Source: Deltaproteobacteria bacterium RIFOXYA12_FULL_61_11 (GTDB taxonomy: Bacteria; Bdellovibrionota_F; JAHFAK01; YA12-FULL-61-11). Taken from it: a DNA stretch of 28,694 bases. The stretch spans positions 1-28,694 of the forward strand of contig MGSU01000290.1 in assembly GCA_001799195.1 (NCBI GenBank). Reading direction: 5' to 3'. Of this stretch, positions 4,653-25,996 are shown piece by piece (position 1 is the stretch's first letter; each line of letters begins with the position of its first letter). The notes below the pieces were generated by a model. It saw nothing but the letters and a program-made list of their open reading frames with translations, did no database searches and had not been told where the DNA came from. A program made the translations under genes and the position numbers.

Positions 4653-4708
4653 CCGGAGTAGCCCCAACTCGTCCGTTGCACGAACCGCTTGCACTCCGGA
4701 GTAGTTGG
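4653..4708 (+). repeat. Interlocked inverted repeats after nifS
   Basis: CCGGAGT (4653-4659) can pair with ACTCCGG (4693-4699), and CCAACT (4664-4669) with AGTTGG (4703-4708). The two pairings cross each other, so they are either alternatives or a pseudoknot. CCGGAGTAG is also a 9-base direct repeat (4653-4661, 4696-4704). There is no T-tract. The role is unknown; possibly it separates nifUS from the PAS gene. Confidence 0.3.
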
Positions 4709-4795
4709 TGGCACAAGGGTCCGAGCGTATCCCGGGTAGCACTGAGGGGAAGTAGAGAAGGCTTCCATCCCCGGGTCATCGGCGAGGGATCGAAG

Positions 4796-7700
4796 ATGCC
4801 GTTGGAGAGTGCGAGTAAACGCGAATTGTGGGAAGTGTTATTGACGACCCACTCCGAACCGGCTGCGGTTTTCGACGCAGACTTGGTGTGCCGAGCGTGG
4901 AACCAACCCTTGGTCGCCTTGTTGCACCGTTCAGCCCCCCTCCCGGACACTCTCTCCCTTCGTGAGTTCGTCCTCGAAGATGCACGCGTTCCCCTCGAAG
5001 CCCGTTTTCGAGAAATCCTCGCCGGAGCGGTTCCTGCTCCTCACAACTTCGAAGTCGCTTTGCGAGGTGCGCCCCCCCTCGCGGTGACCCTCCTCGCCGT
5101 TACCCTGCCCGAGGGTGATGCGGGAGTCCTGATGCTGGGACGGCAGCGTTCCACTCCTGCTCCGGACCAAGAACGGCACGAGCTCATTGCCCTGCGTCGC
5201 GCCCTCAAGACGGCCGGTCTCGGGGTGTGGAGAATCGATCCGAACATGTCTCGGGTACTGCCGGACCCCACCTTGCTCGAGTTGCTCGGTGTCGCTCCGG
5301 ACGGAGAATTCGGCGCCTTCGACCAGTGGCTCGAGCAAGTCCCGGAAGGCGAACTCGACAAGGTGAAATCCACTATCAAAGATCTCCTCACCGGGCAGAA
5401 GGACCGCTTCTCGTACCGCCACCAGTTCCGCCATGCCGATGGCCGAATGCTTTGGCTGGAGGTGTGGGGAGAGCGCATCCTGGTCGAGGGCGAGGCGATC
5501 ATCTACGGCGTCACCCAGAACATCACCAGCCGGCACTTGCAGGAAGAGAGGCAGCACGACAGCGAGGCTCTGCACCGCGCCCTGGTCGAGAACCCGCTGG
5601 TCGGGGTGACTTTGTTCCAGGACGGACAAGTCCTCTTCGCCAACACCGCTGCCTCGGCGATGCTCGGACTCCTTCCGGAAGAAGTCACGGGCATGCCCTT
5701 GAAGGTGCTCGCCTCCTACTTTCATCCCGAGGATCGCGGACGTTTCGGCGCTATGCTGGAAGCGCGCCTGCGCGGAGACAGAATCCCCAATCGCTATTCG
5801 CTGCGGCTCGTTCCCCGTGAGGGTAGCGAACGGTGGGTCGAGATCAACTCCTGCGTTGTGGACCGGAAAGGACGGCCCGCGATCCAGACCTATGTCCATG
5901 ACATCACACCCCAGAAGCAACACGAACAGGAAACCAACAGCGCCATTGCCCATTCCCAGCGCCGCTATCAGGGGCTGTTCGATGGGCTCGGCGGTATGGT
6001 ACTGGCATTCGGACTGGAGGATGAGCTCATCAGGCTGCACGATTGCAATCGGAAAGCCGAACGCACCTTCTCCATCTCTCGGGAGCAGATTCTCGGGTTA
6101 CGACTCGCGGATGCCTTGCCCTGGCTCGATATCCCCCCCTTGCTCGAAGCAGTGATCCGGGTAGGCCGCGATCATCGTCCCGAACGGTTGCACCGCTTGC
6201 ACCTCCAATTGGGGGACAGGATCCTGTGGTACGACTGCTACCTGATCGACCTCGAGGACGACGAGGTCGTGGCCGTGCTCGAGGACATCACCGAGCGCGT
6301 CGAAGCCGAGATCGCCCTGCAACGGAGCGAGGAACGCTATCGCGTCCTCTTCGAACACGCGGGCATCGGTCTTTCGTATTTCGACAATGACGGCAACCTG
6401 CTGCTCGTCAATGCCGCCGGCCGTTCCATGTTCGGTCTGGGCGAGACCGAGGTCCGGGGACGCAGCGTGTTCGACCTGTTCGAACGCGAACGGGCCGGAG
6501 CCATGATGAGCAGGTTGTACCGCACTACCAGTGCACGCCAACCCTTGAGCTTTGCCGACGTGGTTCCGGCCGAACGCGGGCAGGCAGAACTCGAACACCT
6601 CGCCGTACCCGTCCTTGCCGGCGGGGAGGTTGTTGGCATCCAACTCTTCTCCCATGATGTCACCGCCAGACGCCGTGCCGAGGAAGAGTTGCGCTCGAAC
6701 GAACAACGCTACAGGGCTCTCTTCGAGGGTTCGCAGGATGCCATCTTGTTCCTCGACCAAGAGGGGTTGATACAGGACAGTAATCCGGCCACTCGGCACT
6801 TGCTCGGATGGAACCGTCGAGAGTTGCGTGGCCGTCATCTCGGGGACCTGCACGCTGCTTCGCGAAACGAACAACTCCGGGAGATGCTGACCAGCTTCCG
6901 CCGGAATCGCAAGATCCATTATGAGACCGCCCTCGTGACCAAAGAAGGTTGCGAGCTGGAGACCAGCGTGGCGCTCAGTCTCATCGATCCTCGCCAGGGT
7001 CTTGCGCTGGCCCTGGTCCGCAATATCTCTCGGCGCAAAGATGCCGAACGAGGTTTACGCGAACAGGTCTTCTTCCTCCAACAACTCATCGACGCCATCC
7101 CGAACCCTATCTTTTACAAGGACGTCAACGGTCGCTACCTCGGTTGCAACGCCAACTTCTTGCGTTACCTGGGCCGTCGCCGGGACGAGGTCCTGGGGGC
7201 CACGGTTTTCGATCTCTACCCTGCCGAACTGGCCGCCGAATATTTCCGTAAGGACCAGGAACTCTTCGCCGATCCCGGGATCCAGGTCTACGAGTGCCAG
7301 GTCGTCACGGCCGAGGGGAAGATTCACGAGGTCGTGTTCAACAAGGCCACCTTCCTCGACCGTTATGGCAAAGTCGGTGGGGTAGTCGGCATTGTCCTCG
7401 ACCTGACCGAGGCCAAGTCGATCCAACGGGAATTGGAACAGTCCCTGCGCCATTTTCGCACCCTGTTCGAAACGGCAGGTGAAGGCATCTTGCTGATCGA
7501 TCGGACCAGCCTGCGCATTCTCCAGGCCAACCGCTCGGCTGGGGAACTGTTCGGATATGGGGACGAGGAATTCTTGACCCTGACCATGCAGGACCTCCAT
7601 CCACCTGAGTTCAAAGCGATACTGCTTGCTTCCTTCCAACTCCACTCCGAGATGGGGCGAAGCGAAACCGTGGAACTGCCCTGCATGAGAAAAGACGGCA

Positions 7701-7837
7701 GCAGCTTCCTCGCCCGGGTCAATGCCAAGCCGGTCGAGCTCGACGGCCGCACCTGCAATCTCGCCTTCTTCAGCGAAGTACTCCCCGCGCACGATTCCAC
7801 CTCCTTCGAGGTTGTGAAGGAACGCGAGGGAACGTAG
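4796..7837 (+). CDS. Tandem multi-PAS sensor protein without an output domain
   Basis: The start chosen is the ATG at 4796, preceded by GGCGAGGG; an upstream TTG at 4676 gives a non-PAS-like N-terminus. The 1013 residues read as about eight consecutive PAS modules: 1 (about 8-110, degenerate), 2 (125-248), 3 (255-380), 4 (388-503), 5 (512-630), 6 (637-751), 7 (754-878) and 8 (884-1000). Most begin with an RYRxLFE-type cap helix and end in a DIT/DVT/NIS-type PAC motif followed by a coiled linker. No HisKA, HATPase, GGDEF, EAL, receiver or HTH motif follows; the protein stops 13 or so residues after the last module. There is no signal peptide or membrane segment, so it is probably cytoplasmic. 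It may act as a partner subunit of a separate kinase. It lies 144 bp after nifS on the same strand but with its own spacing. Confidence 0.9.
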   Translation: MPLESASKRELWEVLLTTHSEPAAVFDADLVCRAWNQPLVALLHRSAPLPDTLSLREFVLEDARVPLEARFREILAGAVPAPHNFEVALRGAPPLAVTLLAVTLPEGDAGVLMLGRQRSTPAPDQERHELIALRRALKTAGLGVWRIDPNMSRVLPDPTLLELLGVAPDGEFGAFDQWLEQVPEGELDKVKSTIKDLLTGQKDRFSYRHQFRHADGRMLWLEVWGERILVEGEAIIYGVTQNITSRHLQEERQHDSEALHRALVENPLVGVTLFQDGQVLFANTAASAMLGLLPEEVTGMPLKVLASYFHPEDRGRFGAMLEARLRGDRIPNRYSLRLVPREGSERWVEINSCVVDRKGRPAIQTYVHDITPQKQHEQETNSAIAHSQRRYQGLFDGLGGMVLAFGLEDELIRLHDCNRKAERTFSISREQILGLRLADALPWLDIPPLLEAVIRVGRDHRPERLHRLHLQLGDRILWYDCYLIDLEDDEVVAVLEDITERVEAEIALQRSEERYRVLFEHAGIGLSYFDNDGNLLLVNAAGRSMFGLGETEVRGRSVFDLFERERAGAMMSRLYRTTSARQPLSFADVVPAERGQAELEHLAVPVLAGGEVVGIQLFSHDVTARRRAEEELRSNEQRYRALFEGSQDAILFLDQEGLIQDSNPATRHLLGWNRRELRGRHLGDLHAASRNEQLREMLTSFRRNRKIHYETALVTKEGCELETSVALSLIDPRQGLALALVRNISRRKDAERGLREQVFFLQQLIDAIPNPIFYKDVNGRYLGCNANFLRYLGRRRDEVLGATVFDLYPAELAAEYFRKDQELFADPGIQVYECQVVTAEGKIHEVVFNKATFLDRYGKVGGVVGIVLDLTEAKSIQRELEQSLRHFRTLFETAGEGILLIDRTSLRILQANRSAGELFGYGDEEFLTLTMQDLHPPEFKAILLASFQLHSEMGRSETVELPCMRKDGSSFLARVNAKPVELDGRTCNLAFFSEVLPAHDSTSFEVVKEREGT

Positions 7838-10760: not shown

Positions 10761-12146
10761 TCAGAATTCTGCTCTTGTGAAACCCACTTGAATTCCATTC
10801 GCGTGTGCGAATTTTACAACGGTATCCAGGCGCTGCAACCTGAGTTCAAGGGTATTCCCCTCATCCGTATACCAATGTTGGTATTCTTTCCTTGAATGTT
10901 GATCCTCAGGTATCTTTATCCCAAATCGCTCAGGACATTGATCGACCTCGGACATCGGATAGATGAGAAAAGGCAGCACTACCGAAAATTTTTCAATGGA
11001 TGCTTTAGTACGCTCCAAAAAATCGAGGGTCATATCAAAGTCAGCCTGTTCCTCATTCGGAAAACCTACCATGATGTTCACTGAAACGTGAATTCCCTCT
11101 TCGTGAGCATATCGAAGATAGCCCTCGGCTGAGGTGAGATCCACGATCTTATGCATTGACCGGTGGATACGTTGGGAGCCAGTCTCAACTCCAAACCGTA
11201 GCTCATAACACCCGGATTGAGCCATTATCGCGAATAACTCCCGAGGCATACCCTTTCTTGGGATGAAATTACCGAGCCAGGTTAGTTTTATCTTGCTCTT
11301 GATGATACCCCGGCAAAGGTCAGTAAGCACCCTAGTATTTCCATTGATAGCCGAATCGTTGAACTCAAAGACATGGAAACCATGATCATAATGCATTGTA
11401 ATCTCAGAAAGAATGTTATCTACACTCCTTCCCCGGTAGGGTTTCCATATCTGGTTATCAGCACAAAAGGCGCAACTACTGACACAGCCCCTGCTAGCTA
11501 ACATGGATAGAAATCCCGCCCGATAACAATTTATGTCGAAATTGTCATAACAGGGGAATGGAATTGCATCGATATCTCCATTGATAACATCGATAACTTG
11601 TTTATTGGCGATCATTCTATTGATGAAGTTGCCGCCACTAATACTTCGTTCTTCAAGCAACGCATTGATTAGACGCGGCAGGAACATTTCTCCTTCACCT
11701 CGTACGAAGATATCAGCACAATGATCGTCAAGTATGTGCAATTCTTTTACCGAGGAGAAAAGTGGCCCCCCCATCACAACGCAGATCGATGGATTACGTT
11801 GTTTGATCAATCCTGCGAAGTAAGAGGCAAGTTTATGATTTGATCGGTTTGCTCCTATACCGATTACTCGAATGGGGGAGCCGGCAATATCACGGGCTCG
11901 TTCTTCGAGCAGGGGGCTTAAAGAAGTTTTCCACCTGCGAAAACAGTCCCCTTCAGACCAGTTGACGTCATAGTTCTGCCACATATCTTCGATCCCGAAT
12001 TCAGCGCGGCGATGATAGAGTTCGATGTTCAAATCCATAAAATGGTAATCGATTTTATTACTTTTCAGACTCCCGAGGAGATAACCCATGGCAAGATGTG
12101 GTTTTTCTATTGCGGCAGGGGGTAGGGAGATGAGTAAAAAGGACAT
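10761..12146 (-). CDS. B12-binding-type radical SAM protein
   Basis: The ATG at 12146 is preferred over a TTG six bases upstream because AGAGG lies seven bases before it. The 461-residue product starts with FLLISLPPAAIEKPHLAMGYL, the opening of cobalamin-binding (Rossmann-type) radical SAM enzymes. A GIGANRSNHKLA...VVMGGPLFS...FVRGEGE series follows (about 97-152), typical of this B12-like domain. The radical SAM core has C221-XXX-C225-XX-C228 (RGCVSSCAFC) for the [4Fe-4S] cluster, with later FEFNDSAING, FGVETGSQRIHRSMHK and NIMVGFPNEE motifs. Members methylate or rearrange unactivated carbons, or act on RiPP peptides; the substrate here is unknown. The gene is clearly richer in A+T than its neighbours, which points to acquisition by transfer. 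A small ORF lies 36 bases upstream. Confidence 0.9.
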   Translation of the reverse strand: MSFLLISLPPAAIEKPHLAMGYLLGSLKSNKIDYHFMDLNIELYHRRAEFGIEDMWQNYDVNWSEGDCFRRWKTSLSPLLEERARDIAGSPIRVIGIGANRSNHKLASYFAGLIKQRNPSICVVMGGPLFSSVKELHILDDHCADIFVRGEGEMFLPRLINALLEERSISGGNFINRMIANKQVIDVINGDIDAIPFPCYDNFDINCYRAGFLSMLASRGCVSSCAFCADNQIWKPYRGRSVDNILSEITMHYDHGFHVFEFNDSAINGNTRVLTDLCRGIIKSKIKLTWLGNFIPRKGMPRELFAIMAQSGCYELRFGVETGSQRIHRSMHKIVDLTSAEGYLRYAHEEGIHVSVNIMVGFPNEEQADFDMTLDFLERTKASIEKFSVVLPFLIYPMSEVDQCPERFGIKIPEDQHSRKEYQHWYTDEGNTLELRLQRLDTVVKFAHANGIQVGFTRAEF

Positions 12147-12182
12147 CGACAAACCTCTGATTTCCTGTATGGTCCTATTGAA

Positions 12183-12350
12183 CTAAAAAACTGGTTGAAA
12201 CACAAGATTTAGTTTGCTTCCGTCTGGGAGAATAACCCTGGTGACACAATGACCAGTCCTGGGACTACCATCGTTGAAAAATACAAAACCATAAGACTTA
12301 TCAAAAAACATCTCTTTGATTACCCCAGATTTTCCTTGAATAATGTGCAT
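12183..12350 (-). CDS. Small protein (55 aa) upstream of the radical SAM gene
   Basis: An ATG at 12350 opens a 55-codon ORF ending in TAG at 12183, 36 bases before the radical SAM start. It contains SGVIKEMFFDKSYGFVFFND, TGHCVTRVILPDGSKLNLVF and the end FQPVF. It shares the A+T-rich composition of the radical SAM gene. The GVIKEMFFDKSYGFVFF part loosely recalls the RNP1 region of cold-shock domains (KGYGFI). Its position equally allows a precursor peptide for the enzyme, with one Cys (residue 35) and a short C-terminal segment. No clear RBS precedes the ATG, which lies exactly at the composition boundary, so the true 5' end may have been cut off there. It is a real candidate but unproven. Confidence 0.4.
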   Translation of the reverse strand: MHIIQGKSGVIKEMFFDKSYGFVFFNDGSPRTGHCVTRVILPDGSKLNLVFQPVF

Positions 12351-12352
12351 GA

Positions 12353-13135
12353 TCGAAATCCGACCACGGCAAGATCCAGGGCGGTTCGAACCTGCATTTC
12401 GGCACCATCCTCGGCAGACGTTCCGTAGCTGGGGTCAAGTTCCAGGGCGATGGTGGCGGCAAGCCGCCCGAGGATCACAGCGGCTGGGTGCGCGATGTCT
12501 CGGTCGACACCATCGTTATAGAAGAGATGGAGGAAAAAGGGCTCTATTTCTACTTCTCCGAGCGGGTACACATCGGCCGCTACACCGGTCGCCATAATGG
12601 CCACGGTATCCACGCCGTGTTGCAACTTCCTCCCGAGCGGTGGCCGAACTTCAAGGATTTCTCGGACCTCTACGGTATCTCCTCGACCGAGATCGTCATC
12701 GACGAGTTCCTCTCCGAACGGGCCCAGGCCGGGGTGATTATGCTCCAGAAGGTCGCGGAGGAGGCAGATGCCCATGAGTATCCGACCGGATCCTGGTCGA
12801 TAGGCAGGCTCAGGGTAATCGACCCGGCTCCGGCTTGGATGGTATACGTGCTCGACGGTCGGCTCGACCTCGACCGGTACGAATTCCGTGCGTCGGACCC
12901 CGCCCATGTCGACGGAAGCCTCCTCGCCGCCCGTAACCCCCCCGATTCGACAAATCCTTGGTGGGAAGTCGACAACCTGTCGATTGGGGAGCTGCACAGC
13001 GACCTCGACTTCGGGGCTGAACCCGGGGCCGGCTTCTTGGTCCTCGACGTGCCGTACGGAGAGGGTACGGAGAACCACCTCAGGGTTGAACGGGCCACCA
13101 TGGCTGGCCGGGAACCCTTCACCGTGGCCTGGTGA
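12353..13135 (+). pseudogene. 5'-truncated gene, possibly of a beta-helix surface protein
   Basis: The frame is open from 12353, just after a TGA at 12350-12352, but it has no credible start; the first usable codon is a GTG at 12488 inside clearly protein-like sequence. The text upstream of that GTG (SDHGKIQGGSNLHFGTILGR, then RSVAGVKFQGDGGG) reads as genuine coding sequence, so the 5' end is missing. About 260 codons remain. Repeated short strands (VSVDTIVIEEM, EIVIDEFLSE, WSIGRLRVID, LSIGELHSDLDF, LRVERATMAG) with Gly/Asp turns suggest a right-handed parallel beta-helix. The break coincides with the edge of the A+T-rich radical SAM segment, so the insertion probably removed the promoter and N-terminus. 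The function of the parent gene is unknown. Confidence 0.55.
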
Positions 13136-17174: not shown

Positions 17175-17942
17175 TCAACCGTCGCCGAGCAAGCATCCGC
17201 GAAGCTCCTCGACCGTAAAGGGACGGTGCAACCAGGCATAGACTTGCTGATTGCAGCCGGGAATTTTCTCGCGAGAGGGAGAACAGAGCATCAGTTTCAC
17301 GGAGGGAATGCGCGGATCGTTGGAAAGTTCGTGACACAACTCTTTGATCTGTTTTGATCCCATGGAGGTATCGAGGACGATAAAATCGGGTCGATGATGT
17401 TCGATCAGTGTTGCGCCTTGATAAACCCCACCGGCCAAGTACAGCTCGAAATCGGCTTTGTATTGATTGAGCGCGAGTTGGGTCCTGAGTTCCTCGTCCT
17501 CACTGATCACGATGACCGTCAGCCCTCTTCCGTAAGCGATGTGGTAATAACTGCACGAAGTGCAATCCCCCGTGCAGAAGACCTTGCGGTGACCGAAGCC
17601 GTCGGGCAGGTTCTTCAGTTCGTAACAACGTTTACTCCTGCTGCGATAGACAATGCACTCGCGGCACTGTTCGCGGTGACCGTCCTTCTCCTCGCCCAGG
17701 AAATCCCAGCAATAGCGGAAGCGCTTTTCGGTGTAGAGTAGGGGGGGGGGAGATGCTTCTCTGGTGTTCGATTCGCGTTGTTTGAGCAGGGCCTCGAGTT
17801 CGGCGAGAGCGATGCGATGGTGCCCTCCGAGGGTGCGTCGAGCGCGCAACCGGCCGTTCTTGACCCATTTCAGTACCGTGTCCGGTGATACCTCGAGCAG
17901 GTTTGCTGCTTGGGTCGTGGTCAGGAATTGACGCTCGCGCAT
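17175..17942 (-). CDS. HTH / Cys-cluster / receiver-like regulator
   Basis: The 255 residues contain three parts. Residues 5-55 are a MerR/excisionase-type HTH (LTTTQAANLLEVSPDTVLKW, then RTLGGHHRI). Residues 75-135 are a Cys-rich module with seven cysteines (78, 93, 96, 106, 123, 127, 130), suited to an Fe-S cluster or Zn. Residues 140-255 are a receiver-like domain: acidic D149/E150, probable phospho-site D191 (FIVLDTSMG) and LHRPFTVEEL, in which the usual conserved Lys before Pro is Arg (R240). It is a DNA-binding regulator that could sense redox or metal state and/or phosphorylation. The linker between HTH and Cys module is coded over a run of ten C. It runs divergently from the macro-domain/redox operon and could control it. 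A promoter with an overlapping inverted repeat lies upstream. Confidence 0.8.
   Translation of the reverse strand: MRERQFLTTTQAANLLEVSPDTVLKWVKNGRLRARRTLGGHHRIALAELEALLKQRESNTREASPPPLLYTEKRFRYCWDFLGEEKDGHREQCRECIVYRSRSKRCYELKNLPDGFGHRKVFCTGDCTSCSYYHIAYGRGLTVIVISEDEELRTQLALNQYKADFELYLAGGVYQGATLIEHHRPDFIVLDTSMGSKQIKELCHELSNDPRIPSVKLMLCSPSREKIPGCNQQVYAWLHRPFTVEELRGCLLGDG
17741..17750. repeat. G10 homopolymer inside the HTH/receiver gene
   Basis: Ten consecutive G on the plus strand (ten C in the coding strand) encode Pro-Pro-Pro at residues 65-67, between the HTH and the Cys module. A tract this long is prone to slippage; gain or loss of one base would separate the DNA-binding part from the sensor and receiver parts. 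As written, the frame is intact. Confidence 0.9.
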
Positions 17943-18301: not shown

Positions 18302-18838
18302 ATGAACCAGCGCTCCTTTGGCAATTGTACCCTGCGGGTTCAAGAGGGCGACATTACCGACCTCGAGGTTGAGGCCTTCGTGTTCGCCTGCCGCGATGAT
18401 CTCGAGCTCGGTACCGGTTTCGGCACGGCCATATCCATGCGTGGCGGCCCCAAAATCCAAGAAGAACTGCGTACCATCGGCCACTGCGCCAAAGGTGATG
18501 CGGTCGTCACTAGGGCCGGAGACCTCAAGGCTTCCTATATCATCCATGCCAATGGTCCGAAGTTCCAGGAGACAGAGCTCGAGAACAAGCTTGCTGCGGC
18601 GACCAGGGCTTCCTTGGTCAGGGCCAGGGAAAGAAAGGTCAAGAATGTGGCGTTCCCGGCTTTGTGCTCGGGTTTTTACGGTGTGTCGGCAGACCTGTGT
18701 GCCAAGGTGATGTTGCAGACCGCATGCGATGAGGTGCAACGCCATCAAGCCCCTGCCGAGGTGATCTTCTGTCTGCGCGACGAACGGGAACTCGGACCCT
18801 TCCGTGCCGAACTCGCCAAACTGGAGGTCCGTCCATGA
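18302..18838 (+). CDS. Macro-domain protein (ADP-ribose binding or hydrolysing)
   Basis: The 178 residues are a single macro domain. Seen: QEGDITDLEVEAFVFACRDD (14-33), LGTGFGTAISMRGGPKIQEE (37-56), KGDAVVTRAGDLKASYIIHA (64-83, near canonical) and FPALCSGFYGVSAD, the late phosphate-binding loop. The usual NAAN after the first strand is replaced by FACRDD, so the catalytic Asn of MacroD-type hydrolases is absent; it may bind ADP-ribose or a related nucleotide rather than cleave it. A GGAGGA precedes the ATG. The stop overlaps the next start as ATGA, so it is translationally coupled to the membrane subunit. A macro domain leading a redox operon is unusual and suggests an NAD-derived signal. GCR at the substrate site is inferred from alignment by eye. 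Confidence 0.88.
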   Translation: MNQRSFGNCTLRVQEGDITDLEVEAFVFACRDDLELGTGFGTAISMRGGPKIQEELRTIGHCAKGDAVVTRAGDLKASYIIHANGPKFQETELENKLAAATRASLVRARERKVKNVAFPALCSGFYGVSADLCAKVMLQTACDEVQRHQAPAEVIFCLRDERELGPFRAELAKLEVRP

Positions 18839-19518
18839 GCGTCGTCCTGCACTTTGCCCAGCATACGCTGCAAGAGGTCGCCCTCTTCGTCATGGCTGTA
18901 GTGTACCTCCTCCGGTTGCGCTGGCTCTTGAGCTTCAAACCCGGCCGTGACCGGCAGCGTCCGACCGGCGGAGGGGAAGGCAGGAGCGGCGGTCTCTACT
19001 CCCTCGGTACCATCGCCATGCCCTGGGTCATGGAGAGTACACGCACCAATCCGTTCTTCTACGCGCAGTTCGTCGTTTTCCACCTCGCCGCGACAGCCGC
19101 GATTCTCCTCTCCTTTGTCATTCCCTATGCCCCCGGTCTCCTCGAGGTTCGACCTGTGACCGGGTTGTTCCAGCTCTTCATCGGTATGGGGTTCCTGGTG
19201 GGATGCCTCCGTCTGGTACGGCGAGTGACTCAGCGGACCATGCGCGCGCTCAGTTCTCCGGACGACTATTTCTCCTTGATTTTGCTGACAGTATGGCTGG
19301 CCAGCGCCTTCTTGGCGGCACCGAACGACCCGGCCGGCGGCGAGGGCGCCCTGTTGGCCTTCTTCTTCCTGACCGCCTTCTTCCTGCTCTATGTGCCGTT
19401 CAGCAAGATCAGCCATTACCTCTATTATCCCTTCACCCGGTATTACCTCGGCCGCACCCTAGGACATCGCGGTGTCTTCCCGCCGCGCCGCGGGCCTTCG
19501 GTTTCCAGCTCAATCTGA
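18835..19518 (+). CDS. Membrane cytochrome b-like subunit (NarI/TmcC/HmcE type), module 1
   Basis: The 227-residue integral membrane protein has about five hydrophobic spans: near 12-33, 74-98, 108-126, 146-162 and 171-189. Likely haem-ligand histidines are H83 (VVFHLAAT) and H194 (SKISHYLYYP), as in the NarI/DsrM/TmcC family, which passes electrons between menaquinone and a cytoplasmic Fe-S partner. At 227 residues it is of usual NarI size. Its ATG overlaps the macro-gene stop, and the HdrD-like partner starts 12 bases after its stop with GAGGAG as RBS. This is the expected TmcC-TmcB-type order. No periplasmic cytochrome c gene is present here. Identity as this family is confident; haem content is inferred. 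Confidence 0.85.
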   Translation: MSVVLHFAQHTLQEVALFVMAVVYLLRLRWLLSFKPGRDRQRPTGGGEGRSGGLYSLGTIAMPWVMESTRTNPFFYAQFVVFHLAATAAILLSFVIPYAPGLLEVRPVTGLFQLFIGMGFLVGCLRLVRRVTQRTMRALSSPDDYFSLILLTVWLASAFLAAPNDPAGGEGALLAFFFLTAFFLLYVPFSKISHYLYYPFTRYYLGRTLGHRGVFPPRRGPSVSSSI

Positions 19519-19530
19519 AGAGGAGTAGAA

Positions 19531-21270
19531 ATGGATACGCTCACTCGTTCGCACAAGGCCCAGAAACTTATCGAAAGACTGCCCAAGAAGCTCAATCGGC
19601 AGTTCGTCGCCTCCCTGGTCGGTTGCGTCCACTGCGGCATGTGCACCAACTCCTGTCACTATGTGCTTGCCAATCCCGATGACCCGACCTATGCGCCGGC
19701 CTACAAGGCCGACCAGATCCGCAAGCTGTTCAAGCGTCACGTCGACTGGACCGGCAGGTACCTGCCGTGGTGGGTCAAGGCAGGAACGGTGAAAAGCGAC
19801 GAGGACCTAGAGCAACTCAAGGACACCGTCTTCGGCAAGTGCACCAACTGCCGACGCTGTTCTCTGAACTGTCCCATGGGTGTGGATTACGCCAGTTTCA
19901 ATCGCATGGCCCGCGGTCTGTTGGTCTCGGTCGGTGTCATGCCCGAGGGGGTGGCCGCGGTCAGCAAAGACCAATGGGAAATCGGCAACCAGATGGGGGT
20001 ACTTAAGGAGGACTATCTCGACACCTTGGAATGGCTCTCCGACGAGCTGGCCGAGGAATTCGGCGACGAGGCGGCACGCATCCCGGTGGACGTCAAAGAC
20101 GCCGAGGTCGTTTATGCCATCAACCCACGCGAGATCAAGTACGACCCGCGTTCCATCTCGGATGCCGCCCGCATCTTCTACCAGGCCGGGGAGAACTGGA
20201 CTATGCCCAGCGAGGGTTGGGACATGACCAACTTTGGCCTGTTTTCCGGGGACGACGAACTGGGCGGTACCGTGGCGAAACGACTCTATAGTAAGGTCAA
20301 AGAGCTGCGAGGCAAGAAGCTGGTTATCTCGGAATGTGGCCATGGCTACCGCTCGACCCGTTGCGAGGGGCAGAACTGGGCTGCGTTGGGTGAGGTTGGT
20401 TTCGAGATGGAGAGCGCGGTGGTGACCATGCTGCGTTACATCGACCAGGGCCGCATCAAGGTCGACAAAAATGCGAACAAAAAACCCATGACCTTCCATG
20501 ATTCCTGCAATTTCGCACGCAGTTGCGGCATGACCGAAGAACCGCGCGAGTTGCTCTCGGCCGTTTGCACCGAGTTTCGAGAAATGTATCCGAACCGGGC
20601 CGAGAACTATTGCTGCACGGGCGGCGGCGGAGCCATGTCCATGTCCGAGTATACCCCGAGGCGGCTGAAATCGGCCAAGATCAAGGCTGACCAGATTCGG
20701 ACCACAGGAGCCAAGATGGTGGTCACGACCTGCCATAACTGTGTCGATGCGCTCAATGACCTGATCAAACACTATAAACTCGACTGCGAGGTCACCCAAC
20801 TTGTCAACCTCGTGGCCAACGCTCTGGTGCCGACCCGAGCTGCCGTGTCCGTGACCAAGGTCGAGAAACCGGCCCTTCCCCTCGAAGGGTATACCATTCT
20901 GGTGGCCGACGATGAGCCGGACATCACCGCCTTCTTCAGCACCGCATTGTCCGACCAGGGTGCCCAGGTGCACTGTATTTCCAGTGCCGATCAGGTGTTG
21001 GAAACAGTACGCCGCGAAAAACCCGACCTGGTCACCCTTGATCTCTCGATGCCCGGCAGGAGTGTCGGTGAGGTGTTTGAAGCCCTGCGCCGCGACCCCG
21101 AGCTGGCCAAAACCAGGGTCTGTGTCATCACCGGAAAGCCGGAACTGCGCTCGCTCATCTACGAACGCCCCGTGCCGCCTCCAGACGGCTTCTTGGACAA
21201 GCCCGTCAGCGAGGAAAAGCTCATCTTCAACGTGCGCAAGATTCTCGAAATTTCCGAAAAACAGCAGTAA
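19531..21270 (+). CDS. HdrD-like Fe-S oxidoreductase fused to a response-regulator receiver
   Basis: Residues 1-435 are an HdrD/TmcB/DsrK-like subunit. Two [4Fe-4S] motifs: C32-XX-C35-XX-C38-XXX-C42 and C104-XX-C107-XX-C110-XXX-C114-P. A degenerate first CCG unit (C269, C278) and a full second one (C326...C361-C362...C401-XX-C404), which in HdrD holds the special [4Fe-4S] centre for disulfide chemistry. Residues about 452-579 are a complete receiver: acidic D460/D461, phospho-site D504 (LVTLDLSMPG), T534 and K557 (FLDKPVSEEKL). The two parts are in one frame with no stop, and the joint is a short VTKVEKPALPLEG linker. Family members take electrons from the membrane subunit and reduce cytoplasmic disulfides or partners. 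A receiver on such a protein is unusual and implies coupling of redox state and phosphorylation. A kinase gene follows. Confidence 0.92.
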   Translation: MDTLTRSHKAQKLIERLPKKLNRQFVASLVGCVHCGMCTNSCHYVLANPDDPTYAPAYKADQIRKLFKRHVDWTGRYLPWWVKAGTVKSDEDLEQLKDTVFGKCTNCRRCSLNCPMGVDYASFNRMARGLLVSVGVMPEGVAAVSKDQWEIGNQMGVLKEDYLDTLEWLSDELAEEFGDEAARIPVDVKDAEVVYAINPREIKYDPRSISDAARIFYQAGENWTMPSEGWDMTNFGLFSGDDELGGTVAKRLYSKVKELRGKKLVISECGHGYRSTRCEGQNWAALGEVGFEMESAVVTMLRYIDQGRIKVDKNANKKPMTFHDSCNFARSCGMTEEPRELLSAVCTEFREMYPNRAENYCCTGGGGAMSMSEYTPRRLKSAKIKADQIRTTGAKMVVTTCHNCVDALNDLIKHYKLDCEVTQLVNLVANALVPTRAAVSVTKVEKPALPLEGYTILVADDEPDITAFFSTALSDQGAQVHCISSADQVLETVRREKPDLVTLDLSMPGRSVGEVFEALRRDPELAKTRVCVITGKPELRSLIYERPVPPPDGFLDKPVSEEKLIFNVRKILEISEKQQ

Positions 21271-21301
21271 CCTTCTTTGCCACTGAATCAGGGGGCGCAC
21301 C

Positions 21302-22735
21302 ATGACCGAGGCCCGTTTTCGCGAATACCTCGACGCGCTGCCTTGTTACCTCACCGTCCAAGATAAGACCCTGCGTATCATCCATGCCAACCGTCGCTTC
21401 GAGGAGGATTTCGGCGAATGGTCCGGTCGTTTTTGCTATCAGGTCTATAAACACCGTTCCGAACCGTGCGAGGTCTGCCCGGTCGAGAAGACCTTCCGCG
21501 ACGGCAGCGGCGCCTCGAACGAGGAACTCGTGCGCAACCTGGAAGGCAGGGAGATCGCCGTCCTGGTCAACACCACGCCCCTCTATGACGAGCATGGGGC
21601 CGTGACCGCGGTGCTGGAGCAGTCGACCGACGTGAGCGACTTAGTCAGGCTACAGGTGTTGCTGCGCGAGAGTCAGCAGAAGTATCGCCTGCTCTTCGAT
21701 GAAGCACCCTGTTTTGTGTCCATCCAAGACAGTGAATTACGCATCACCGAGGCCAACCGGGCCTTCCGAGAAGCCTTCGGAGAAGCTTACGGCAGCCATT
21801 GCTACCGCACCTATAAGCACCGCGGCGAGGTCTGCTCCCCCTGTCCGGTCCAAGAGACGTTCAAAGATGGTCAGGTGCATACCAGTGAGGAGGTCGTTGC
21901 CTCGCCGGGTGGCGAAACGGTCAACGTTCTGGTACGCACTGCACCGCTCAAGGACGACGAGGGCAGCATCCGAGCCGTGATGGAGATGAGCACCGACATC
22001 ACCGAACTGCGCCGCCTCCAGGACCAGCTCACCTCGATTGGACTCCTTATTAGCTCAATTTCTCACGGCATCAAGGGCCTGCTGACTGGTATGGACGGCG
22101 GCATCTACCTGGTCAACAGCGGTTTCGAGAAGAACGACAAACCCCGGGTGCAACAAGGCTGGGAGATGGTCCAACGCAACATCGACCGGATTCGCTCCAT
22201 GGTTCTCAACATTCTCTACTATGCCAAGGAGCGTCCACCGGACTGGAGGGAACTCGACCTCGGCGATTTATGCGCTTCGGTCGCCGCGGTCATTGCCCCC
22301 AAGGCTGCCCAGCTCGGCATCACCTTCACCGTCGCGTCCGAGTTGCAAGACCGTATCGAAGGCGACGAGGCCGCCCTTCGGGCCATGCTCCTTAACCTGC
22401 TCGAGAACGCCGTGGATGCTTGCCGTTTGGCCAAAGACGGGAAAGTCCACCGTGTGACCCTCGGAGCACGCCGGGAACCCGGCTGCATCGTCCTGTGCAT
22501 CACCGATGACGGTATCGGTATGGACCAAGAAACATGCAATAAGGCATTCAGTCTGTTCTTTTCCTCCAAAGGTCTGGAGGGCACCGGCCTCGGCCTGTTC
22601 ATCGCCAATCAGATTGCCGAAACCCATGGCGGGGACATCCGGGTGAGCGCGGAACCCGGCCGTGGCTCGAGGTTCGAGGTAACCTTGCGGCAACAGCGCC
22701 TCGGTCCGTCTGCTACCCTCGATCAGCCCTCCTGA
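21302..22735 (+). CDS. Histidine kinase with two Cys-cluster PAS domains
   Basis: The 477 residues have PAS 1 (about 5-115), PAS 2 (about 128-237), a HisKA region with H255 (ISSISHGIKGLLTG) and a HATPase domain: N box N369 (LLNLLENAVDA), G1 D402-X-G-X-G406 (TDDGIGM), F box and G2 GTGLGLF (427-433). Each PAS carries the same cluster: C45...C56-XX-C59-P (HRSEPCEVCPV) and C167...C178-XX-C181-P (HRGEVCSPCPV). Three Cys per PAS suit an Fe-S, haem or thiol redox sensor. There is no membrane segment, so it is cytoplasmic. It starts 31 bases after the HdrD-receiver gene, making that receiver a likely partner; the stand-alone receiver 3 kb downstream is another. It has no own receiver. Confidence 0.93.
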   Translation: MTEARFREYLDALPCYLTVQDKTLRIIHANRRFEEDFGEWSGRFCYQVYKHRSEPCEVCPVEKTFRDGSGASNEELVRNLEGREIAVLVNTTPLYDEHGAVTAVLEQSTDVSDLVRLQVLLRESQQKYRLLFDEAPCFVSIQDSELRITEANRAFREAFGEAYGSHCYRTYKHRGEVCSPCPVQETFKDGQVHTSEEVVASPGGETVNVLVRTAPLKDDEGSIRAVMEMSTDITELRRLQDQLTSIGLLISSISHGIKGLLTGMDGGIYLVNSGFEKNDKPRVQQGWEMVQRNIDRIRSMVLNILYYAKERPPDWRELDLGDLCASVAAVIAPKAAQLGITFTVASELQDRIEGDEAALRAMLLNLLENAVDACRLAKDGKVHRVTLGARREPGCIVLCITDDGIGMDQETCNKAFSLFFSSKGLEGTGLGLFIANQIAETHGGDIRVSAEPGRGSRFEVTLRQQRLGPSATLDQPS

Positions 22736-23005
22736 CCGGCTGTTCCGTGCTCCTTCAGCTCTTGGGGCATGGGAGTGCGACCCTCATCGCCGTCGTGATG
22801 AGTGGCTTTATGTACCTCTGGTTGATATTTGAAATTTTAAACCATTCAAATTGTTATGAAAAATTTCGAGAAAATACATAAAATCATGAATAGGATCAAG
22901 GGAATGTGTCCTTTTTCGGGATTGACAGGGGCTGGAGCGAGATGCTAGAGCGTGCCTGGTGTTACATTTTTGAAACACCGCACGGCATCTTCGAGAGGAG
23001 CATTC
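22736..23005. other. A+T-rich gap between the two redox modules
   Basis: This 270-bp gap has no gene. 22810-22915 is strongly A+T-rich, like the leader before the macro gene. A TTGACA hexamer lies at 22922-22927, but the sequence about 17 bp on (GCTAGAG) is a poor -10. GAGAGGAG at 22993-23000 is the RBS of the next gene. Module 2 therefore probably has its own promoter. Confidence 0.45.
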
Positions 23006-23941
23006 ATGAACAGCGTTCTTCTGCACCTGCTCAGCTATACCGGCCTGGTGGTCGCCCTGGCGGCCATGGCCCGTAGGGTCCAGGTCTATCTCAGCACCCC
23101 GTTGCACCTGCGCTGGGAATTGTATCCCGTGGCGCACGAGGGAGGGAAACGCGCCGGGTACGGTGGGTCCTACCTCGAAGAAGTCGATTGGTGGACGAAG
23201 CCACGTCATACCAATATATTCAATGAAATAAAAGCAATGGCTCTCGAAATCCTCTTTCTGCGCGGGGTGTGGGAACATAACCGGAGTTTGTGGTACCGAT
23301 CCTTCCCCTTTCATTTCGGTCTCTATCTCGTCTTGGCTTGGTTGGCGCTCCTTGTCATCGGGGCTTTCTTGCAAATGTTCGGCTTCGACCCGGCAGGCGA
23401 TGGCGCCCTGGCTACCCTGCTCCGCGTAAAGACGACCTTCTGTGGGGTGTTTGGTTTCTTATTGACCATGATCGGTTCTGCAGGGCTCTTCTTCCGCCGC
23501 TACCTCGATGAAGACCTGCGCAACTACTCGAGCAGCGCCGACTTCTTCAACCTCGCCCTGATCTTCGTGACCATGTTGACCGCGTTCTGCAGCTACATTT
23601 TCGAAGACCACGGTTTCTTCCAGGCGCGAGCGTACGTCCACAGTCTGTTGACCTTCGATTTCGCCGAGCTCGGCGGGGTCCTGTTCGGGGTCCAGGTTCT
23701 GCTCGGTGCTGTGTTGATGGCTTATATCCCGCTCACGCACATGGCGCACTTCTTCACCAAGTACTTCTTCTATCACGACATCCGCTGGAACGACACCCCC
23801 AACGTCAGGGGGGAGACCTACGACCAGCAGATCAGCGAGGTACTTGGCTACAAACTCAATTGGAACGCTCCACACATCAAGGCCGAGGGCAAGAAAACCT
23901 GGGCCCAGGTCGCAACCGAGGAGACAAAGGACAATGACTGA
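23006..23941 (+). CDS. Membrane cytochrome b-like subunit (TmcC/DsrM type), module 2
   Basis: The ATG at 23006 follows GAGAGGAG; a longer open frame upstream is not protein-like. The 311-residue protein has hydrophobic spans near 3-21, 101-125, 143-164, 179-199 and 222-243. A conserved-looking cytoplasmic segment (34-98: LRWELYPVAHEGGKRAGYGG then WWTKPRHTNIFNEIKAMALE) is characteristic of the TmcC/HmcE branch. Probable haem ligands are H103 (FPFHFGLYLV), H212 and H245/H248 (PLTHMAHFF). It is longer than the module 1 subunit and has a soluble C-terminal tail (about 255-311). It should exchange electrons between menaquinone and the HdrD-like partner, whose start overlaps its stop by 8 bases. 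Confidence 0.88.
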   Translation: MNSVLLHLLSYTGLVVALAAMARRVQVYLSTPLHLRWELYPVAHEGGKRAGYGGSYLEEVDWWTKPRHTNIFNEIKAMALEILFLRGVWEHNRSLWYRSFPFHFGLYLVLAWLALLVIGAFLQMFGFDPAGDGALATLLRVKTTFCGVFGFLLTMIGSAGLFFRRYLDEDLRNYSSSADFFNLALIFVTMLTAFCSYIFEDHGFFQARAYVHSLLTFDFAELGGVLFGVQVLLGAVLMAYIPLTHMAHFFTKYFFYHDIRWNDTPNVRGETYDQQISEVLGYKLNWNAPHIKAEGKKTWAQVATEETKDND

Positions 23942-25544
23942 GAAGAAAATCAAGATCGAGGACATGGGGCGCCAGGATCTCGACCGTCTGAGTACCTTCG
24001 ACAAGAAACGTCAGCCGCCATTGCCTCCGCCCTATGACAAGCTCGAGGAAGAACCGGATTTCCCACCTCTCTCCGAGGATGTGAAGCAGAAGTATGAGGC
24101 CCGGCTCGACGACACTCTGGCCATCAGCATACCCAAGCCCAAGACTCCTGAGGAAGAGGCCGTGCTGGTCCAGAAATTCCTTACGGGTCTCGAGAAGCTC
24201 TTCGTCAAGGAGAACAACTGGACCTTCCTCCAGCCGCTCCTCCTGACCATGGACCACTGCGCCAAGTGCCACACGTGCTCCGAGGCCTGTCATATCTACG
24301 AAGCCAGCGGCCGAGACGAGCTCTACCGGCCCTCGTACCGTTCCGAGGTCTTCCGGCGTCTGTACCGCAAGTTCGTCAACAAGGGTTCCTTATTAGAGAG
24401 TTGGCGGGCGGGCGACATCAAATTGAGTTGGACCCTGATCGCCCGCTTGGCTGAGCTCGCCTACCGCTGTAATTTGTGCCGGCGTTGCGCTCAAACCTGT
24501 CCCATCGGCGTGGACAACGCCCTGGTGGCGAGGGAAATCCGCAAGTTGTTCAGTCAGGAACTGGGCATCGCGCCCAAGGAAATCCATGACAACGGCGCGC
24601 TGCTGCAGCTCAAGGTCGGGTCCTCGACCGGCATGTCGGCCCTGGTGGTCAAGGACAACATCGAGTTCATCGACGAGGACATCAGCGAGAAGACCGGCCT
24701 CGATCTCAAGACCCATTGGGACGTACAAGGCGCCGACGTCCTGCTCATCCACAACGCCGGCGAGATCATGGCCTGGCCGGAAAATCCCGGGGCTTTCGCC
24801 GTGATCCTGGAGAAGGCAGGGATCAGTTGGACCTTGTCCAGTGACCTGTGCGCGTATGACGGGATCAACTACGGCGTGTGGTACGACGACACGCTCTTCG
24901 CCAAGGTCGCGATCAAGCACATGCAGGCAGCCAAGAAGCTCGGCGTGAAGAAGATCGTTATCGGCGAGTGCGGCCACGCCCACAAGGCCCTCACCGTGAT
25001 CGCCGACCGGGCTCTGCCCAAGGATCTGCAGGTTCCGCGCGAGAGCGCCATGACCTTGCTCGAGGAGATCGTCTTCAGCGGCAAGATCGCCTTCGACCCC
25101 TCGCGCAACGATTTTCCGGTGACCCTGCACGATCCCTGCAACCTGGTGCGGCTCATGGGCATCGTTGAGCCACAGCGCCGCATCCTCAGGTATCTCTGCC
25201 CGCAGTTCCGCGAGATGACCCCGCACGGGGTCGAGAACTACTGCTGCGGCGGCGGTAGTGGTTTTGCGATCATGTCCGGCCACAACTTCGGGCAGTGGCG
25301 CATCAATGTGACGAGCCGCAAGAAGTTCGAGCAGATCCTCAATGCCTTCCAGGACTGCATCGACCCGGGTATCCACAAGTACGTTTGTGCACCGTGCAGC
25401 AACTGTAAAGGTGCGATCCGCGATATTCTCGCCCACTATGAGGCCTTCGAGAAGTGCGGCATCCTATACGGCGGCCTGGTCGAATTGATCGTCAACGCCA
25501 TGGTCGACGTCAAACCTGGTTTCATCGACTGGGAGTGGCGCTGA
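23934..25544 (+). CDS. HdrD-like Fe-S oxidoreductase (TmcB/DsrK type), module 2
   Basis: The ATG at 23934, with GAGGAGACAAAGG upstream, overlaps the end of the membrane-subunit gene and is better than the upstream open frame. The 536 residues begin with a charged, Pro-rich extension (1-100) not seen in module 1. Then come two [4Fe-4S] motifs, C109-XX-C112-XX-C115-XXX-C119 and C179-XX-C182-XX-C185-XXX-C189-P. A partial first CCG unit (C346) and a second one follow, with C402 (HDPCNLV), C437-C438 (NYCCGGGSG) and C485-XX-C488-XX-C491. The extra Cys before the final CXXC is notable. The role should match module 1: electron transfer between the membrane quinone subunit and a cytoplasmic disulfide or protein. 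It has no receiver of its own; the next gene supplies one. Confidence 0.93.
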   Translation: MTEKKIKIEDMGRQDLDRLSTFDKKRQPPLPPPYDKLEEEPDFPPLSEDVKQKYEARLDDTLAISIPKPKTPEEEAVLVQKFLTGLEKLFVKENNWTFLQPLLLTMDHCAKCHTCSEACHIYEASGRDELYRPSYRSEVFRRLYRKFVNKGSLLESWRAGDIKLSWTLIARLAELAYRCNLCRRCAQTCPIGVDNALVAREIRKLFSQELGIAPKEIHDNGALLQLKVGSSTGMSALVVKDNIEFIDEDISEKTGLDLKTHWDVQGADVLLIHNAGEIMAWPENPGAFAVILEKAGISWTLSSDLCAYDGINYGVWYDDTLFAKVAIKHMQAAKKLGVKKIVIGECGHAHKALTVIADRALPKDLQVPRESAMTLLEEIVFSGKIAFDPSRNDFPVTLHDPCNLVRLMGIVEPQRRILRYLCPQFREMTPHGVENYCCGGGSGFAIMSGHNFGQWRINVTSRKKFEQILNAFQDCIDPGIHKYVCAPCSNCKGAIRDILAHYEAFEKCGILYGGLVELIVNAMVDVKPGFIDWEWR

Positions 25545-25615
25545 AAGAGGTGTAACCTTTGGAGTTACCTGGATAGCTTGATGGAGAGTAGGCAAGAAAC
25601 CGAGAAGGAGCCTTC

Positions 25616-25996
25616 ATGAACGACAAGAAGAAGATCCTGATCATCGACGACGAGCCGGACGTAGTCACCTTCCTGACCACCCTGCTCGAGGACAACGGCT
25701 ATCTCACCGTGACCGCGACCGACGGAGAGGAGGGCTTGGCCAAGGTCAAGAGCGAGCGGCCCGACGCCGTGACCCTGGACATCACCATGCCCAACACCAC
25801 CGGCGTGCGCTTCTACCGCGAGCTGCGCGAGAGCGCCGAGTTCGCGAAGCTCCCTGTGATTATGGTTACCGGCGTGACCGGCGGCTTCGACAAGTTCATC
25901 TCGTCGCGCCGTCAGGTACCGCCGCCCGAGGGCTTTGTCTCCAAGCCCATCGACCAGCAGAAGCTGCTCGCCTTGTTGGCCAAGGTGTTACAGTAA
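25616..25996 (+). CDS. Stand-alone response-regulator receiver
   Basis: A 126-residue single receiver domain: D11/D12 (LIIDDEPD), phospho-site D55 (AVTLDITMPN), T85 (VIMVTG) and K110 (GFVSKPIDQQKL). There is no output domain. The VPPPEGF stretch before the conserved Lys-Pro matches VPPPDGF in the receiver fused to the module 1 HdrD-like protein, so the two receivers are close relatives and differ from ordinary CheY-like sequences, which lack this insertion. It starts 71 bases after the module 2 HdrD-like gene, with AAGGAG as RBS. Similar small receivers (Rrf1) accompany hmc operons in Desulfovibrio. It may act by protein-protein contact with the HdrD-like subunit or as phosphate sink for the kinase encoded upstream. 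Confidence 0.93.
   Translation: MNDKKKILIIDDEPDVVTFLTTLLEDNGYLTVTATDGEEGLAKVKSERPDAVTLDITMPNTTGVRFYRELRESAEFAKLPVIMVTGVTGGFDKFISSRRQVPPPEGFVSKPIDQQKLLALLAKVLQ

Follow-up and report, generated by a model that had tools for sequence, protein, structure and literature searches.

A conserved gene cassette joins a receiver-fused HdrD-like subunit to a cysteine-PAS kinase and is associated with dsr genes

The DNA analyzed here (the window) is a whole contig of 28,694 nt, MGSU01000290.1, one of the 342 contigs (C290 in our numbering) of the 4.64-Mb metagenome-assembled genome (MAG) of Deltaproteobacteria bacterium RIFOXYA12_FULL_61_11 (GCA_001799195.1). Positions 18302–22735 form a single tight operon, with overlaps or gaps of at most 31 bp, encoding a macro domain protein, a b-type membrane subunit, an HdrD-like protein fused to a receiver domain and a sensor histidine kinase with two cysteine-bearing PAS domains. 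This redox module and its two-component genes constitute one conserved unit, which recurs in ~13 phyla in the same order, with its catalytic residues retained and with a clear association with the dsr genes. We hold with middling confidence that the cassette is a dissimilatory-sulfur respiratory module, in which a menaquinone:DsrC-type thiol oxidoreductase would have its HdrD subunit phosphorylated by a thiol/redox-sensing kinase. Little is known about how sulfite/sulfate respiration is controlled, particularly in the uncultured phyla to which most dsrAB diversity now belongs, and a conserved cassette lying inside the dsr operons of some lineages is a concrete candidate for its redox control.

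Composition and conservation of the cassette

The gene calls and coordinates of the initial annotation for positions 18302–25996 proved correct when compared with the open reading frames (ORFs) and the Pfam and NCBIfam matches (Table 1). A macro domain gene heads the first operon, a pair of b-type and HdrD-like genes occurs twice in a row, the first HdrD-like protein is fused to a receiver and the second is followed by a stand-alone receiver, and the kinase between the modules has two Cys-cluster PAS domains with one C-x10-C-x2-C motif each. A 270-bp gap separates the kinase from the second trio (23006–25996), composed of a NarI/DsrM-like subunit, a DsrK-like protein and the stand-alone receiver. 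The likelier start of the NarI/DsrM-like gene is the ATG at 23006, preceded by AGGAG.

Table 1. Predicted features of the cassette region in the window
Feature	Position	Strand	Supporting matches
HTH_17 (BldC/MerR-like)–seven-Cys region–receiver-like domain	17175..17942	-	HTH_17 E 1e-13, weak Response_reg
Macro domain protein	18302..18838	+	Pfam Macro E 8e-26
HmcE/TmcC-like b-type membrane subunit	18835..19518	+	weak NCBIfam matches: HmcE 45 bits, TmcC 40 bits
HdrD-like + receiver fusion, whole gene	19531..21270	+	HmcF 329 bits, TmcB 312 bits
HdrD-like (HmcF/TmcB type) domain, residues 1–436	19531..20838	+	Fer4_8, CCG
Receiver fused to HdrD, VPPPDGF loop	20875..21270	+	Response_reg E 1.8e-14, residues 456–565
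Sensor histidine kinase, two PAS	21302..22735	+	Pfam PAS x2, HATPase_c E 2e-24
NarI/DsrM-like b-type subunit, second module	23006..23941	+	Nitrate_red_gam E 1.7e-10; DsrM 27.5 bits
DsrK-like protein (second HdrD-type)	23934..25544	+	DsrK model 324.8 bits
Stand-alone receiver, VPPPEGF loop, DVU0259-like	25616..25996	+	Response_reg E 8e-23; DVU0259 model (NF045717) 109.9 bits

The conservation scan, performed on one genome per species, retrieved at least 80 loci; counts out of 80 refer to those listed, one contig entered twice (L053 = L089) was counted once, and other denominators are the loci with sufficient flanking DNA. Identity in the best segment ranged from 49 to 78%. All 80 records seem to stem from uncultured organisms, as MAGs or other assembled sequences. 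The carriers, as named in the records, comprised Zixibacteria, Syntrophaceae and other Thermodesulfobacteriota, Myxococcota, Acidobacteriota, Planctomycetota, Calditrichota, Elusimicrobia, Ignavibacteria/Bacteroidota, Electryoneota, LCP-89, Abyssobacteria, Gemmatimonadota and Nitrospirota. The co-occurrence of the macro domain, the b-type subunit, the HdrD–receiver fusion and the Cys-PAS kinase, proposed as a check in the initial annotation, was found well beyond the source genome, so that lack of conservation elsewhere, one of the refuting conditions named there, does not apply. The usual order was macro, b-type subunit, HdrD–receiver, kinase, receiver, the first four genes being retained in nearly all loci with enough flank. 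The cassette was detected in 32/132 genomes of Zixibacteria and 11/148 genomes of the class of a Thermoanaerobaculales genome (Acidobacteriota), as well as in 2/245 Nitrospirota, both of them with the receiver-less form. One more receiver-less cassette was noted on a contig labelled Candidatus Nealsonbacteria (Candidate Phyla Radiation, CPR; locus L124), which is probably mis-binned.

The fusion of HdrD with the receiver was present in 70/80 loci. The HdrD-like domain, whose identity averages 76% among 44 loci, contains two [4Fe-4S] motifs and one CCG domain, i.e., the motifs and ligands that define an HdrD-type CCG oxidoreductase, and the ligands C32–C42, C104–C114, C326, C361/362 and C401/404 were conserved in 99–100% of 71 sequences. 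The single-chain AlphaFold2 model (mean predicted local distance difference test score, pLDDT, of 85.8) matched the folds of EtfD, LutA and HdrB besides those of receivers. Among 70 fused receivers, D461, E462 and D504 were invariant, and D460 and K557 were retained in 99%; because the phosphoacceptor Asp, the acidic pair and the Lys are conserved to this extent, the domain is selected as a working receiver. The b-type subunit was encoded in 77/77 loci, and its two invariant histidines (His83 and His194) are enough for one bis-His haem.

Kinase presence, scored only where at least 1.6 kb of downstream DNA was available, was noted in 60/66 loci. The phosphoacceptor His255 and all six PAS cysteines (C45/56/59 and C167/178/181) were 100% conserved in 57 sequences, as was Cys374, with Cys137 at 98%. 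All two-component residues are present in the window: H255, N369, D402 and G404 in the kinase, D504/K557 in the fused and D55/K110 in the stand-alone receiver. The AlphaFold2 model of the kinase (pLDDT 85.2) matched the WalK, NifL and LOV-HK kinases. The kinase accompanied the fusion in 58/59 loci. Seven loci are unfused: five of them have neither a receiver gene nor the kinase, and in the other two a separate receiver beside HdrD is accompanied by the kinase (Fisher p=1.4e-5, without correction for ancestry). In the HdrD tree, receiver and kinase were missing together on two independent branches, which is concordant with the counts and too few to test. Since the receiver-less Nitrospirota forms nest within the fused ones, loss of the receiver is the simpler reading.

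The stand-alone receiver was found nearby in 51/65 loci, with D12, D55 and P104 conserved in 100% and K110 in 98% of 54 sequences. In most loci it follows the kinase, and in the window it sits behind the inserted second module. The Pro-rich loop of both receivers, which precedes receiver strand 5, had been described as an unusual VPPPxGF insertion. It is indeed rare: a search of 41 genomes for PP[DE]G[FY]xxKP gave eight exact matches at the DNA level, the two from the source genome being both receivers discussed here. Of the remaining six, four are in a comparable locus or share a contig with a nearby further HdrD gene: one (G007 C58) in an orthologous cassette, the others ~0.4 kb (G025), ~3.5 kb (G021) and ~6 kb (G007 C25) from other HdrD-family genes. 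Within the wider family a slightly looser motif is common but not universal (46/70 fused and 18/42 stand-alone receivers).

The macro protein was encoded in 67/74 loci with enough upstream DNA. It conserves Asp33, Gly37/39/41, His82, Gly85 and Pro86, and its nearest solved structures are the PARP14 macrodomain and TTHA0132. A role as an ADP-ribosyl hydrolase is disfavoured: the catalytic residues of MacroD-type enzymes are absent, the Asn of NAAN and the Asp of GGGVDGAI being replaced in the window (FACR and GTGFGTAI, respectively). Because these residues are missing, we read the protein as a ligand binder, probably of an ADP-ribose/NAD-type nucleotide.

The initial annotation had assumed two redox modules, each wired to a receiver. 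This did not hold across the loci: the DsrM/DsrK-like module was present in only 11/80 of them and the receiver mostly follows the kinase. The idea of two equivalent modules was hence rejected, and the second one is considered a facultative add-on. Its NarI/DsrM-like gene recurs together with the DsrK-like gene, and the DsrK-like protein of the window belongs to a clade of its own, apart from canonical DsrK (support 100).

Association with dsr genes

In the sampled cassette genomes, dsrA scored above the curated cut-off in 18/18 and DsrC was detected in 17/18. The association, not raised in the initial annotation, was also seen within two larger samples. Among 132 Zixibacteria, dsrA was detected in 26/32 genomes with the cassette vs. 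20/100 without it (Fisher p=6e-10), and among 148 genomes of the second class (Acidobacteriota, Thermoanaerobaculales) in 9/11 vs. 10/137 (Fisher p=6e-8).

The genes are contiguous in some lineages. Zixibacterium SpSt-1246 carries dsrA, dsrB, dsrN-like, dsrL-like, dsrC, macro, b-type subunit, HdrD–receiver and kinase genes in this order, followed by one uncharacterised gene and dsrM-, dsrK-, dsrO- and dsrP-like genes (dsr names beyond dsrA, dsrB and dsrC were assigned by reading the sequences). In five Syntrophaceae-type loci, dsrA/dsrB and dsrC form one run with the cassette, which comes directly after dsrC, with its receiver and with the DsrK-like module. Because of this gene order, DsrC is the likeliest partner of the b-type–HdrD pair. 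DsrC was not found in the window; the source genome carries dsrA and dsrC with Qmo-like genes on one contig (C333), and dsrB with dsrL-, dsrN- and dsrMKJ-like genes on another (C98).

A DsrC-like gene adjoins HdrD in the receiver-less Nitrospirota loci and also in L085 and L101. Such genes were located at 11464–11730 in L132, from 11463 in L129, at 11805–12398 and 14120–14395 in L085, and at 1820–2095 in L101. In the parts read, the usual GAC cysteine is replaced, the motif being GAY in L132, in L101 and in one of the L085 copies, and FPCG contains a Cys. Judging from these residues, the altered proteins are possibly a special DsrC variant for the HdrD of the cassette. As a separate observation, tandem double-DsrC-domain ORFs of ~220–263 aa were noted in five genomes (G383, G041, G052, G391 and G007), and the number of DsrC-domain matches per genome reached 12 (G383).

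Proposed function, alternatives and known systems

HmcEF, TmcBC and DsrMK complexes serve electron transfer between a thiol partner in the cytoplasm and menaquinone or cytochromes. DsrC has been proposed as this partner (PMC4215793). The cassette resembles the Desulfovibrio Hmc and Tmc systems in combining an HdrD-type Fe–S protein (HmcF/TmcB) with a small b-type anchor (HmcE/TmcC), in having a receiver (Rrf1, DVU0259-type) and Rrf2 regulators nearby, and in its best NCBIfam matches, which are HmcEF/TmcBC. Unlike them, it lacks a multihaem cytochrome c and NrfD, its receiver is fused to HdrD, and it has a dedicated Cys-PAS kinase and a macro domain. No ORF of the cassette encodes a multihaem cytochrome c, nor was one noted among the gene families that recur around the 80 loci, save the DsrJ-like protein of neighbouring DsrMKJOP. 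With DsrMKJOP the cassette shares a quinone-linked b-type subunit and an HdrD-type protein located in dsr operons, the second module being DsrMK-like; DsrK, however, has no receiver, and the source genome encodes canonical DsrMKJ elsewhere (C98). The curated cut-offs were missed for HmcF (329/750 bits), TmcB (312/735), HmcE (45/275) and TmcC (40/240), and by the second module for DsrK (324.8/400) and DsrM (27.5/300). Because of these scores and the missing multihaem cytochrome, the cassette was placed outside the Hmc, Tmc and DsrMK families. The stand-alone receiver was best matched by the DVU0259 family (NF045717), below its cut-off (109.9/160 bits) and in a different operon context.

The kinase, with its Cys-bearing PAS domains, is reminiscent of ArcBA, RegBA, NreBC, NifL and RsfSR, in which a kinase with a Cys-bearing or redox PAS domain reads the respiratory state; the second-best PDB fold match of its model is the NifL–NifA complex. 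In contrast to these systems, the receiver is part of an oxidoreductase that is co-operonic with the kinase. The parts are of known kinds; it is their conserved combination that seems to be new, most of all the co-operonic Cys-PAS kinase together with a receiver on a respiratory HdrD. No description of the macro, HdrD–receiver and kinase set was found in the open-access literature searched, in keeping with the initial annotation, which knew of no system with this exact gene set; subscription papers lie largely outside that literature, so the absence is weak evidence. A keyword search of two dsr genomics papers (PMC7596348, PMC6018796) returned no mention of kinases, response regulators, macro domains or HdrD.

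In the reading that we prefer, the b-type subunit and the HdrD domain would associate in a menaquinone-linked complex like HmcEF, TmcBC or DsrMK, with a DsrC-type thiol/trisulfide protein of the cytoplasm as its partner in electron exchange. The kinase would read the cytoplasmic thiol/persulfide redox state via its two three-cysteine PAS domains, which by their residues seem suited to a thiol, persulfide, metal or Fe–S signal. It would phosphorylate the fused receiver and thereby gate or retune the passage of electrons through the complex, and the stand-alone receiver would presumably be a second target; transcription would probably be tuned in parallel by an adjacent HTH-Cys7-receiver, Rrf2-type or sigma-54 regulator. 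As a working receiver is fused to the redox subunit, phosphorylation would reach the enzyme itself, and cells with the cassette may use this route to turn some of their respiration on or off. The more specific proposal, that in ~13 phyla of sulfite/sulfate respirers the catalytic subunit of a quinone:thiol oxidoreductase bears a receiver through which a dedicated thiol-sensing kinase directly gates electron flow into sulfite reduction, is put forward tentatively.

Gating is our first choice for the role of phosphorylation, and its main rival, which we judge rather unlikely, casts the b-type–HdrD pair chiefly as an antenna. HdrD would then pass the quinone/thiol redox state on to the Cys-PAS kinase, with the fused receiver acting as a docking site for the kinase or as a phosphate sink; the real output would be transcriptional, by way of the stand-alone receiver and of the HTH-Cys7-receiver, Rrf2 or sigma-54 regulators. 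Cysteines are conserved in both the kinase and the HTH-Cys7-receiver, such regulators recur upstream (15, 22 and 14 loci, respectively), and two-component systems sensing the respiratory state have precedents in ArcB and RsfSR (PMC10950880). On the other hand, HdrD retains all its catalytic CCG and Fe–S ligands as an active oxidoreductase would, and the type of regulator differs among lineages whereas the fused receiver is constant. A further alternative is ordinary co-regulation, in which kinase and receivers would only control the expression of sulfur-respiration genes and the fused receiver would be an inert tether or localisation tag with no effect on catalysis. Desulfovibrio hmc operons carry the rrf1 and rrf2 regulators, and HdrD orthologues without a receiver exist in the Nitrospirota-type loci, both in line with this possibility; we consider it improbable given the near-invariance of the phosphoacceptor Asp, acidic pair and Lys in the fused domain and the joint loss of receiver and kinase. 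Mis-assembly, a false fusion or unrelated neighbours might be suspected in a fragmented MAG, the more so as nearly all cassette genomes are MAGs. The fusion and the gene order are repeated in dozens of independent MAGs and two closed chromosomes, which excludes such an artefact for practical purposes.

Several observations weigh against gating by a dedicated kinase in sulfur respiration. The cassette and the dsr genes are co-operonic in 6/80 loci and otherwise lie apart, also in the source genome, and dsrA was undetected in 8/43 cassette genomes of the two samples, possibly due to MAG incompleteness. The C-x10-C-x2-C motif of the PAS domains might be a structural metal site instead of a sensor. 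The co-occurrence of kinase and receiver relies on few independent losses, and correlated divergence cannot show their partnership because all genes share the operon history, for which reason a distance-matrix comparison was dropped as a test. The AlphaFold2 models are of single chains. Whichever role phosphorylation has, this is a rare case of a receiver built into a respiratory enzyme, and the cassette makes post-translational His–Asp gating of anaerobic electron flow in bacteria directly testable.

Neighbouring regulators and other observations

The HTH_17-Cys7-receiver gene, which lies just outside the annotated stretch of 18302–25996 and was not raised in the initial annotation, is divergent from the cassette in the window. 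Its homologues were detected in 15 of ~67 loci, mostly directly upstream of the macro gene. The seven cysteines and Asp191 were invariant in 17 sequences, and the usual receiver Lys is mostly kept, being Arg in the window. The protein is likely the transcriptional output. Rrf2-family regulators (22 loci) and a sigma-54 PAS protein (14 loci) were the other regulators found upstream of the cassette. These counts rest on similarity thresholds, and a few regulators may sit elsewhere in the neighbourhood. No match to a sigma-54 pattern was found when the upstream regions were scanned.

Two more operons with HdrD-type, cytochrome c and NrfD-like genes were noted in the source genome (C64, locus L054, 4266–12346; C10, locus L055, 2016–14287). 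Each adjoins Cys-PAS kinases, receivers and a sigma-54 PAS regulator, and C10 also encodes another HTH-Cys-rich protein. Association with Cys-PAS kinases appears to be a general theme of Hmc-like complexes.

No Rfam families or tRNAs were found in the window. Elsewhere in it, positions 4676–7837 encode a protein of 1053 aa that has six or more PAS domains, for which the NCBIfam matches show no kinase or other output domain. A radical-SAM/B12-binding-like protein, recognised by eye, is encoded at 10761–12152 on the minus strand; the local G+C content of this stretch is 0.48 vs. ~0.60, and it was possibly acquired.

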